Shown: positions 7,312 through 18,500 of the stretch, piece by piece
Layout of the letters: each line of letters begins with the position of its first letter
How positions within the stretch are numbered: the stretch's first letter is position 1
The notes under the pieces: generated by a model
What the model was told of the DNA's origin: nothing
The model's input: only the letters and a program-made list of their open reading frames with translations
The model's database searches: none
Position numbers and translations under genes: made by a program
Assembly (NCBI GenBank): GCA_002307375.1
Contig: NTJI01000001.1
Coordinates: 248,001 to 312,000 of the forward strand
Origin: Lysobacteraceae bacterium NML93-0399
Lineage (GTDB): Bacteria; Pseudomonadota; Gammaproteobacteria; Xanthomonadales; Xanthomonadaceae
Reading direction: 5' to 3'
Length of the DNA: 64,000 nt

Positions 7312-8733
7312 TTACTCGAAGCTGCCGATCGAGTCGTGCGAGAGATTGTCGAAGCGTGTGTACTCGCCGAAGAACTTCAGCTTCACCGAGCCGGTCGGGC
7401 CGCTACGCTGCTTGCCGATGATGATCTCGGCCAGGCCTTTGTCCGGCGAGGTTTCCTTGTTGTAGTAGTCGTCGCGGTAGATGAAGATGATGATGTCGGC
7501 GTCCTGCTCGATCGCGCCCGATTCGCGCAGGTCGGCCATCACGGGGCGCTTGTCGGCACGCGTTTCCAGCGAACGGTTGAGCTGCGACAGCGCGATCACC
7601 GGCACGTTCAACTCCTTGGCCAGACCCTTGAGCGAGCGCGAGATCTCCGAGATTTCGGTCGCGCGGTTCTCGCTGTTGCCCGGCACGCTCATCAGCTGCA
7701 GGTAATCGATGACCACCAGGCCCAGATCGTGCTCGCGCTTGAGGCGGCGGCATTTGGCGCGCAACACATCCGGGCCCAGACCCGGCGTGTCGTCGATGAA
7801 GATCTTGGTTTCCTTGAGCATGCGGATCGCGCTGCTCACCCGGCTCCAGTCCTCGTCCTCCAGTTGGCCGGTGCGCAGGCGCGTGGCGTTGATGCGGCCA
7901 TTTGACGAAATCAGGCGCAGCGCGAGCTGGCTGGCCGACATTTCCATCGAGAACACGCCGACGGCCTTCTTGGTCTTGATCGCCGCGTACTCGGCGATGT
8001 TGAGCGCGAACGTCGTCTTGCCCATCGCCGGGCGTGCGGCCAGGATGATCAGGTCGGTCGGCTGCAGGCCGGCGGTCATCTCGTCGAATTCGGTGTAGCC
8101 GGTCGGCAGGCCGGTGACGCCTCCGCCGTTGGTGTAGCGCGTCTGCAGGACGTCGAACGCATCGGCCATCGCCTTGTTGATCGCGGTGAAGTCCGTGCGC
8201 CCCTGCGCGCCGGCTTCGGCGATCTTGAACACCTGCTGCTCGGCCTTGGCGAGGATCTCGCTGCTGTCGCGGCCTTCGGGCTGGAAGCCATCGTTGACGA
8301 TTTCGGTGCCGACGTCGATGAGCTGCCGCAGGATCGCCTTGTCGCGCACGATCTCGGCATAGGCGCGGATGTTGGCCGCTGACGGCGTGGTACTGGCGAG
8401 TTCGCCCAGGTACGCGCCGCCGGCGACGAGTTCGGACAGGCCATTGGAATCGAACCACTCGCCCAGCGTCACGGCATCGAAGGGCTTGCTCTTCTCGGCC
8501 AGTTCCTGGATCGCCGAATAGATCTTCTGGTGGTCGCGGCGATAGAAATCATCCGGCACCAGCAGATCGGCGATGCGGTCGTAGGCATCGGGCACCAGCA
8601 TCAGGCCGCCCAGCACCGCCTGTTCGGCCTCGACCGACTGCGGCGGCACACGCAACTGCTCCACGCGCGCATCGCTGCGGTCGCGATCGCGGTCGAAGCG
8701 GTCGTTGTTGCGGAATTCGTTGCGTGCGGACAT
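7312..8733 (-). CDS. dnaB: replicative DNA helicase DnaB
   Basis: 473 residues, normal length. Hexameric 5'-3' helicase of the replication fork, loaded by DnaA/DnaC-type factors. The N-terminal DnaG-interacting domain (PPQSVEAEQAVLGGLML...) and the RecA-like C-terminal domain are both complete, with Walker A AARPAMGKTTFALN, Walker B VVIDYLQLM and the arginine-finger region KQRSGPTG. No intein is present. Upstream DNA contains two DnaA-box matches, so expression may respond to DnaA. Confidence 0.98.
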   Translation of the reverse strand: MSARNEFRNNDRFDRDRDRSDARVEQLRVPPQSVEAEQAVLGGLMLVPDAYDRIADLLVPDDFYRRDHQKIYSAIQELAEKSKPFDAVTLGEWFDSNGLSELVAGGAYLGELASTTPSAANIRAYAEIVRDKAILRQLIDVGTEIVNDGFQPEGRDSSEILAKAEQQVFKIAEAGAQGRTDFTAINKAMADAFDVLQTRYTNGGGVTGLPTGYTEFDEMTAGLQPTDLIILAARPAMGKTTFALNIAEYAAIKTKKAVGVFSMEMSASQLALRLISSNGRINATRLRTGQLEDEDWSRVSSAIRMLKETKIFIDDTPGLGPDVLRAKCRRLKREHDLGLVVIDYLQLMSVPGNSENRATEISEISRSLKGLAKELNVPVIALSQLNRSLETRADKRPVMADLRESGAIEQDADIIIFIYRDDYYNKETSPDKGLAEIIIGKQRSGPTGSVKLKFFGEYTRFDNLSHDSIGSFE

Positions 8734-8789
8734 GGCGATGGACTTCTGGAGAAACGGACTACGGCGCTTGGAATGCTAGGGCGTACGCC

Positions 8790-8821
8790 TGTGGATACGC
8801 GACGACACAACCTGTGGATAA
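8790..8821 (-). promoter_or_regulatory. two DnaA boxes upstream of dnaB
   Basis: Read on the minus strand, 8813-8821 is a perfect TTATCCACA box and 8790-8798 is GTATCCACA (one mismatch). Both have the same orientation, start-to-start distance 23 bp, lying 57-88 bp before the dnaB ATG. DnaA-ATP binds this nonamer at oriC and at regulated promoters. I saw no other match in the flanking 1 kb. Function at this site is an inference. Confidence 0.55.
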
Positions 8822-8908
8822 GCTTGGGAATGCACAGCTTTACAACGGGTTGTTTCGCGGCTTGAGACGACTTCTTCGGAAACAGCGAGGGACCGGCCGG
8901 GATTGCTC

Positions 8909-9307
8909 CTCGGCTCGGTCAGTCATCCCTGACTGACTCGCCGCCGCGGACCATCCATGGTCCGCTCTCCGCAACGCCCGGCCGATCCCTCGCCCGCGAG
9001 CTGGGACTATGCAGCTTCTAAAGCTCATGCGCGCTGCGGTTGGATTCCGCAGACGTACCAAACGCCTCCGAAAAGCGCTGCTGCGTGAGGCGTTTCCGAA
9101 GGCACGAAAGCCGGATACTCACCGCAAGCAGCGGACTGGCGGGTCATGGCTGTGCCGAGCGCGCAATGAATGGCGCGCGCCCGAGTCAGGGCAGGGTGAG
9201 TGGGGACCGCTTGCGCGGCACAGCCGTGCGTCCACACAAACGCCGCGAAGCGGCCCTGACCGAGGGAGAAGCGACCTTGGCCCGGCAGGCCGATGCGTCC
9301 ATCCGAG
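8909..9307 (+). repeat. composite dispersed repeat, copy A
   Basis: Matches, in inverse orientation, the intergenic DNA at 17677-18042. Module 1 (8909-8975, 67 bp) differs from its partner (17976-18042) at only four positions and contains two hairpins: 8918-8937 (8-bp stem) and 8946-8965 (9-bp stem around GGACCATCCATGGTCC). Module 2 (9118-9307) matches 17677-17889 with a ~24-bp indel. The spacer between them (8976-9117) is less alike and holds a further 9-bp-stem inverted repeat at 9060-9068/9087-9095. It fills most of the rplI-dnaB gap. No transposase or terminal repeat is visible. Confidence 0.8.
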
Positions 9308-9342
9308 GCCGGAAAAGAAGCCGGGAAGCCAACAGAGCCCCA

Positions 9343-9372
9343 AACGAAAACGGGCGCCTTTCGGCGCCCGTT
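9343..9372 (-). terminator. rho-independent terminator of rpsF-rpsR-rplI
   Basis: On the minus strand AACGGGCGCC-GAAA-GGCGCCCGTT forms a 10-bp GC-rich stem with a GAAA tetraloop, followed by a T-rich tail (TTTTCGTTT). It begins 23 bp after the rplI stop, so it separates the ribosomal-protein operon from dnaB. Confidence 0.88.
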
Positions 9373-9394
9373 AAGGACAACCCGATCCGATGGA

Positions 9395-9847
9395 TCAGGC
9401 GACCTCGCCTTCGATGATCACCTTGACGGTGGTCTCGGCGTCGGCGTGCAGGTGCACCACGACTTCGAACTCACCGGTGTTGCGGAATGCGCCTTCGCCC
9501 AGCACGACTTCCGACTTGTTGACCGGCGTGACCGCCTTGGTCAGGGCCTCGGCGATTTCGCGCGGGCCGACCGAGCCGTACAGCTTGCCTTCGGTGGAGG
9601 CGTTGGCATAGATCGTCACGCTGGCGTCTTCGAGCTTGGCCAGACGCTGGGTGGCTTCGTCGAGCTGGGCCTGGGCCTTGGCTTCGTACTCGGCGCGGCG
9701 CGCTTCGAACTCGGCGACGTTGGCTTCGGTCGCCGGCACGGCCTTGCCCTGCGGGACCAGGAAGTTGCGGCCGTAGCCCGGCTTGACGTTGACCTTGTCA
9801 CCGAGGTTGCCGAGGTTGGTGACCTTCTGCAGGAGGATCAGTTGCAT
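9395..9847 (-). CDS. rplI: 50S ribosomal protein L9
   Basis: 150 residues, standard length. Starts [19 protein letters not shown] with the L9 signature [13 protein letters not shown], the long connecting helix (roughly residues 45-75) and the C-terminal 23S-binding domain. Binds domain V of 23S rRNA at the base of the L1 stalk. Last gene of the rpsF-rpsR-rplI operon. Confidence 0.98.
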
Positions 9848-17676: not shown

Positions 17677-18042
17677 ACTCCGGATAGGCATCGGCCTGTC
17701 GCCCGGAAGCCGCTTTCCCCTCGGTCAAGGCCGCTTCGCGGTCCGGCCCGGCGCAGCGCGCCGCGCGTTCGTCTGGACGCGCGGCAGTGCCGCGCAAGCC
17801 ATCCCCACTCACCCTGCCTTGACTCGGGCGCGCGCCATCCATGACGCACTCGGCGCGGCCACCGGCCACCGGTCCGCTGCGGCGAGCTTCCAGCGGTTGC
17901 GTTCGGATAGCGAAAGTCCCGTCTGCGAGAAAGAAGTCGCGATCTCATGGTCACAGCGCGTTGCGCCGACGGGGGGTTGCGGAGAGCGGACCATGGATGG
18001 TCCGCGGCGGCGAGTCAGGCATGGATGCCTGACCGAGCTGAG
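17677..18042 (-). repeat. composite dispersed repeat, copy B
   Basis: Inverse-oriented partner of 8909-9307, occupying most of the 550-bp gap between SURF1 and the HesB gene. Module 1 is 17976-18042 with hairpins at 17986-18005 (9-bp stem) and 18014-18033 (9-bp stem GTCAGGCAT/ATGCCTGAC). Module 2 is 17677-17889. The hairpin at 18014-18033 differs from copy A by a T-A to G-C swap that preserves pairing. The rest of the gap (17615-17676, 18043-18164) holds nothing I recognise. Confidence 0.8.
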
Positions 18043-18164
18043 GCGCAACCCCCGGCCGGCGCAACGCGCTTTGCCGAAGTCGCTCACTCCCACGCTGCAA
18101 GCCGCGGTCGACGCTCGCTACAACTTGGCCATCACGTTCATGGCTGCCCTCTTGGGCGGACGGC

Positions 18165-18500
18165 TTACTTGGTGGGATCGGTCGTAAAACTTTCGCCGCA
18201 GCCGCAGGCTGCAGCGGCATTCGGGTTGCGGAACACGAATTCCTGGTTCAGGCCCTTCTGCGCGAAGTCGATCTCGGTGCCGTCGACGATCGGCTGACTC
18301 TGCGCGTCGACGTAGATCCGCACGCCGTCCTGCTCGCTGATCGCATCGCCCGGCTGTTCCTCGCGCGCGATGTCGACGACGTAGCCCCAGCCCGAGCATC
18401 CGGTGCGGGTGACGCCGAAGCGCAGACCCAGCGCATCGGGGCTGGCGGCAAGGAAGCGGCGGGCGCGTTCGAGGGCGGCGGGGGCAAGTGCGATGGCCAT
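18165..18500 (-). CDS. HesB/IscA family iron-sulfur cluster assembly protein
   Basis: 111 residues. The A-type carrier cysteines are present: [13 protein letters not shown] near residue 35 and the C-terminal CGCGESF pair. Such proteins receive Fe-S clusters from the IscU scaffold and deliver them to apoproteins. Whether it is IscA, ErpA or another paralogue cannot be decided here; no isc genes are adjacent. It is divergent from asnS with ~100 bp between starts. Confidence 0.85.

Follow-up and report, generated by a model that had tools for sequence, protein, structure and literature searches.

Introduction

The closest described relative of the repeat examined here is the TwoAYGGAY RNA (Rfam RF01731, clan CL00106; PMC2864571), a three-way junction in which a variable external stem encloses two hairpins with AYGGAY loops on the same strand, and which has been predicted to bind CsrA (PMC4333381). 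The family was called relatively unexplored in a 2025 paper (PMC12199142). Repeated GGA hairpin loops on one RNA are also found in the CsrB/CsrC and RsmX/Y/Z sponge RNAs, although these are probably one or few single genes carrying many loops. RsmA controls virulence and motility in Xanthomonas, yet no significant homologue of CsrB, CsrC or RsmV-Z was reported in any sequenced Xanthomonas genome (PMC7694677). The same study described RsmU (sRX061) of Xanthomonas campestris, an RsmA-binding RNA made from a 3' UTR at a single locus and reported as conserved in Xanthomonas and no other bacteria. Notably, RsmU in which all four GGA motifs had been changed still bound RsmA, a caution against reading GGA motifs alone as proof of binding. 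At the DNA level, REPIN/BIME repeats with RAYT transposases appear to comprise inverted pairs of palindromic units dispersed between genes.

In this study, we examined a repeat in a 64,000-nucleotide stretch (the window) of contig NTJI01000001.1 from Lysobacteraceae bacterium NML93-0399. A preliminary description had noted a two-copy 67-bp module with paired hairpins and a compensatory base change, and had proposed a retained structure, RNA or cruciform, that was not one of the standard REP types. We find that this observation is correct and that the module is the core of a longer, dispersed element with two loops per unit and many units, whose loops resemble CsrA/RsmA sites. Related copies in sister species are matched by RF01731, whereas the window's own copies are not.

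Results

The 67-bp module is the core of a three-way junction

Copy A (8909-8975) and copy B (17976-18042, reverse complement) differ at exactly 4 of 67 positions: 8912 G/A, 8923 T/G, 8929 C/A and 8932 A/C. Positions 8923 and 8932 pair with each other (T-A in A, G-C in B), 8929 lies in the apical loop, and the second hairpin is unchanged. The next best gapless 67-mer on either strand of the window has 32 mismatches, so the match is not chance. The element is longer than was first recognized, extending over 8885-8994 (A-I, minus strand) and 17957-18067 (B-I, plus strand), with an outer stem of 22 predicted pairs in each copy. Counted from its outer end, 14 of these pairs are the same in A and B, 2 differ on one side, 4 differ on both sides and still pair, and 2 have no counterpart; 8 of 23 positions of the 5' arm differ. 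Shuffle z-scores of folding are -7.3 for A and -9.1 for B.

In A-I, read on the minus strand, the 5' arm of the outer stem (8971-8993) pairs with the 3' arm (8885-8906) and encloses one hairpin (8946-8965) with the hexaloop AUGGAU (8953-8958, ATCCAT on the plus strand) and a second (8912-8945) with the hexaloop AGGGAU (8925-8930, ATCCCT on the plus strand), which carries the T-A to G-C change and departs from Y in its loop. In B-I, hairpins at 17986-18005 and 18014-18033 each present AUGGAU (17993-17998 and 18021-18026). A-I lies between what appear, judged from their sequences, to be rplI (9395-9847, minus strand; upstream, found in 52 of 52 genomes of the genus) and dnaB (7312-8733, minus strand; downstream), and its RNA-sense strand runs in the same direction as both.

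Each copy has a related second element about 100-150 bp away in inverted orientation. A-II (9131-9300, plus strand) has one decayed loop (AUGAAU) and its other arm is expanded by an insert module, so it is probably degenerate; B-II (17692-17878, minus strand) has one AUGGAU loop and a second arm expanded in the same manner. The boundaries of both are approximate, read from the sequence, and neither was among the hits of the covariance model described below. The insert, hairpin-rich and roughly 85 bp (window 9190-9255, with equivalents at loci L008 and L118), sits inside one arm of several units (A-II, B-II and two further own-genome units, D-I and D-II), replacing the GGA loop, and its own stems also seem to vary while staying paired.

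The element is widespread and its pairing is conserved

A blastn search found four copies in the own genome and matches in 8 of 31 genomes, the own one included. A covariance model (R1) built from 18 elements scored A-I at 112.7 bits and B-I at 116.8 bits, and found 6 elements in the own genome, hits in 33 of 52 genomes of the genus, and hits in 68 of 247 genomes (21 of 54 genera) drawn from the family. A closer search of six genomes gave 90 copies in G016, 58 in G018, 49 in G017, 23 in G011, 22 in G008 and 6 in the own genome (labels beginning with G denote genomes, those with L loci). Since the searches over more than 40 genomes scored only part of the candidates, copy numbers are lower bounds. 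Folding of places chosen by eye gave nine units in five places of the own genome, of which five have two intact GGA loops; the other four have fewer (A-II none; B-II, D-I and D-II one), as expected of a decaying repeat. No match was found by blastn in plasmid and phage records. A twin-loop pattern gave 15 stretches in viral contigs. A match to sX5 in the window was weak (14.9 of 50 bits).

R1 gave 128 hits in the loci examined, of which 115 do not overlap. From these loci we aligned 102 units from 75 sources chosen by hand, leaving out near-duplicates by eye and one further locus (L024). Of the aligned cells, 94.8% are paired, 29 of 33 pairs have changes on both sides, and the covariation score is 0.482 against 0.125 for shuffles and 0.04-0.08 for slid pairings. 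The alignment was fitted to the model and therefore leans toward it; the gap to the slid controls is large. Members of one genome are not independent. Pairing is kept, not randomly lost.

Wobble mismatches favor one strand read as RNA

To distinguish RNA from cruciform DNA, we folded the units with G-U pairing forbidden and counted one- and two-base mismatches inside stems. A DNA cruciform forms on both strands, so G.T and A.C should be equal. On the exact units, the sense strand has 167 G.T, 17 A.C and 140 other mismatches, while random control windows have 24, 38 and 124 on one strand and 34, 30 and 144 on the other. With 25-nt flanks and 115 units, we obtained 176 A.C and 31 G.T on the model strand, and 163 G.T and 43 A.C on refolding the reverse strand. 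The excess holds per element (82 to 5, with 15 ties) and per genome (50 to 1 of 55, with 4 ties). In 22 outward-facing pairs, the left members give 38 to 5 and the right members 39.5 to 3 (means of two foldings), so each half is selected when read outward. The same bias, weaker (70 to 36), appears in 125 twin-loop sites found by a DNA pattern scan, although of 131 pattern sites only 39 fold with both hexaloops and an outer stem of five pairs or more within 45-nt flanks. Transcription-linked C-to-T mutation could add to the bias, but would itself require transcription of that strand. The choice between RNA and cruciform left by the preliminary description can therefore be narrowed in favor of a single strand read as RNA.

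The loops resemble CsrA/RsmA sites

On the sense strand, the 368 loops of the 115 units with flanks include AUGGAU (112), AGGAU (33; one base shorter), AGGGAU (21), ACGGAU (9), AAGGAU (4) and rarer forms; 218 contain GGA and 18 UCC. In the 102-unit set, 91 have two GGA loops, 9 have one and 2 have none, and the spacing of the two GGAs is 26-30 nt in the 91. The base before GGA is nearly free (0.40 bits), although the loops tabulated were chosen for GGA. This A(N)GGA(U/C) form agrees with what is probably the CsrA/RsmA hexaloop, ANGGAN, and the GGA hairpin motif and dimer binding have been described (PMC4333381). A CsrA gene (PF02599) is present in 50 of 52 genomes of the genus, and that of the own genome is intact in sequence. 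CsrA presence does not discriminate, however, since it is found in 240 of 247 genomes of the family and two weak carriers (G243 and G264) lack a match. Conversely, 19 of 52 genomes of the genus have no detected copy of the element though CsrA is near-universal, so the element is not essential.

RF01731 exceeded its cut-off at 21 places in 5 of 52 genomes of the genus, including L055 at 51.9 bits with both loops and the outer stem aligned, at L177, and in 15 of 369 genomes of the class. Seven places that coincide with R1 hits could be compared (3 over and 4 under the cut-off), and 7 of 7 lie on the predicted sense strand. The model does not hit the window at its gathering score, the copy A region (8700-9420) even at E 10, or the own genome at E 0.001.

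Neighboring elements face outward and vary in presence

Of 26 neighboring elements within 400 bp, 22 face outward, 4 the same direction and 0 inward. At E 1e-7, 50 of 75 clusters show a single element, so pairing is common but not general at that threshold. An independent model showed the same arrangement: among RF01731 hits in the class, with at most 7 candidates scored per genome, four neighboring pairs (three genomes of one genus) face outward, one is same-direction and none inward. The 75 clusters, after dropping those with the same first 60 bases, were tandem in 36 (one overlapping a predicted gene), convergent in 30, divergent in 5 and at an edge in 4; these counts are rough, as our gene caller missed one gene (the minus-strand gene ending at 18165). 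Single units showed no preferred orientation to flanking genes by eye. Geometry also varies, since Stagnimonas and a Lysobacter (L226 and L192) carry the twin-loop sites in direct tandem with a longer loop-to-loop stretch of 54 bases.

About 18 of 20 G016 loci, by eye, share the same pair and lose similarity outside it. At the L027 site, G008, G011, G048 and G054 carry element sequence (rearranged in G054), while the own genome has 28 bases and G009 has 102 bases between the matching flanks; in G048 and G011 the element lies inverted relative to G008. Exact insertion boundaries and target duplications could not be set, as the flanks are too diverged. Likewise, in a subset of genomes, the rplI-dnaB gap ranges from 181-302 bp without an element to 555-767 bp with one. 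Others hold different or degraded repeats. A different long structured repeat (containing CAAGGAGGAGGC and CCTCCTCCTTG) occupies the gap in G062 and G005 (L131 and L133), and a different palindrome (GAGTGCAATTTC...GAAATTGCACTC) lies where element II would be in G011 (L117).

Discussion

Taken with the conserved structure, strand, loops, outward pairing, dispersal and presence/absence, we consider it most likely (probability roughly 0.68) that each copy is an approximately 110-nt three-way-junction RNA of the TwoAYGGAY kind, in which the outer stem presents two hairpins whose loops, about 28 nt apart, each offer one CsrA/RsmA site, such that one RsmA dimer could bridge them. Where two elements are neighbors they face outward, so transcription from either side reads one of them in the right sense. 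The most likely action is as decoys or processed 3'-UTR RNAs that bind and titrate RsmA, and RsmU provides a precedent for such a route. While the RNA structure is well supported, transcription, RsmA binding, titration and the means of movement are inferred, in the absence of expression or binding data, and no sigma-70-like promoter was found near either copy. The pairs multiply and disappear like a non-autonomous mobile repeat. High copy number, outward pairs and a mobility-like distribution were not described in the accounts of TwoAYGGAY that we consulted, and a partial literature search, judged by titles and the start of abstracts, listed no paper describing this organization. The element is a candidate RsmA antagonist in a family where classical ones seem missing, and it would give a function and a genomic organization to this Rfam family. 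More tentatively, a mobile repeat family may spread ready-made RsmA decoys through Gammaproteobacteria, with outward-facing pairs guaranteeing that any neighboring transcript yields one sense copy, and with copy number, rather than a dedicated sponge gene, setting the RsmA-buffering capacity. This would supply the missing Csr/Rsm antagonists of the Lysobacteraceae, explain TwoAYGGAY as a dispersed repeat class, and be an example of a mobile repeat that distributes protein-binding RNAs.

An alternative, which we regard as unlikely, is that the element is a mobile palindromic DNA repeat (REP/BIME/MITE-like) in which hairpins serve only transposition or protein binding at the DNA level, the GGA loops being a transposase recognition feature. 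In support of this are its dispersal in up to 90 copies, inverted neighbors, homology limited to the pair in about 18 of 20 G016 loci by eye, presence/absence at one site, and variable outer stems. However, double-stranded cruciforms should not favor G.T over A.C on one strand, yet both pair members show this when read outward. There is also no dependence on PF01797 (RAYT/IS200-type transposase): of 52 genomes, 23 have elements and PF01797, 10 elements only, 10 PF01797 only and 9 neither (odds ratio 2.1, Fisher p 0.25). G016 (an 89% complete assembly) and G018, with 90 and 58 copies, have no PF01797 match, and the own genome has one hit on the same contig, about 83 kb from copy A. A weak trend or another enzyme is not excluded. 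ORFs between distant inverted units in L066 and L077 gave no transposase by eye, offering no support for an autonomous element.

Still less likely is a role in transcriptional punctuation, as a bidirectional terminator or 3'-end stabilizer (RNase barrier). The predominance of tandem and convergent contexts, and the position of the element shortly (about 40-60 bp) after an intrinsic terminator at the two sites inspected (window 9349-9372, at rplI, and L027 about 1400-1426), are compatible with such a role. Yet no terminator-like U-tract was found at B-I or A-I, punctuation does not explain the conserved A(N)GGA(U/C) loops, and a terminator already precedes the element at both sites, as if terminator tails were preferred targets. 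Template-switch repair of palindromes, which would fit the long outer stems of differing sequence among copies, is disfavored because it predicts no strand preference, whereas 50 genomes to 1 show a G.T excess, and because loops are conserved while stems vary. Lastly, a hybrid unit at L030 (1474-1577) joins halves of type II and type I at the CCATCCATGG hairpin, suggesting recombination there.
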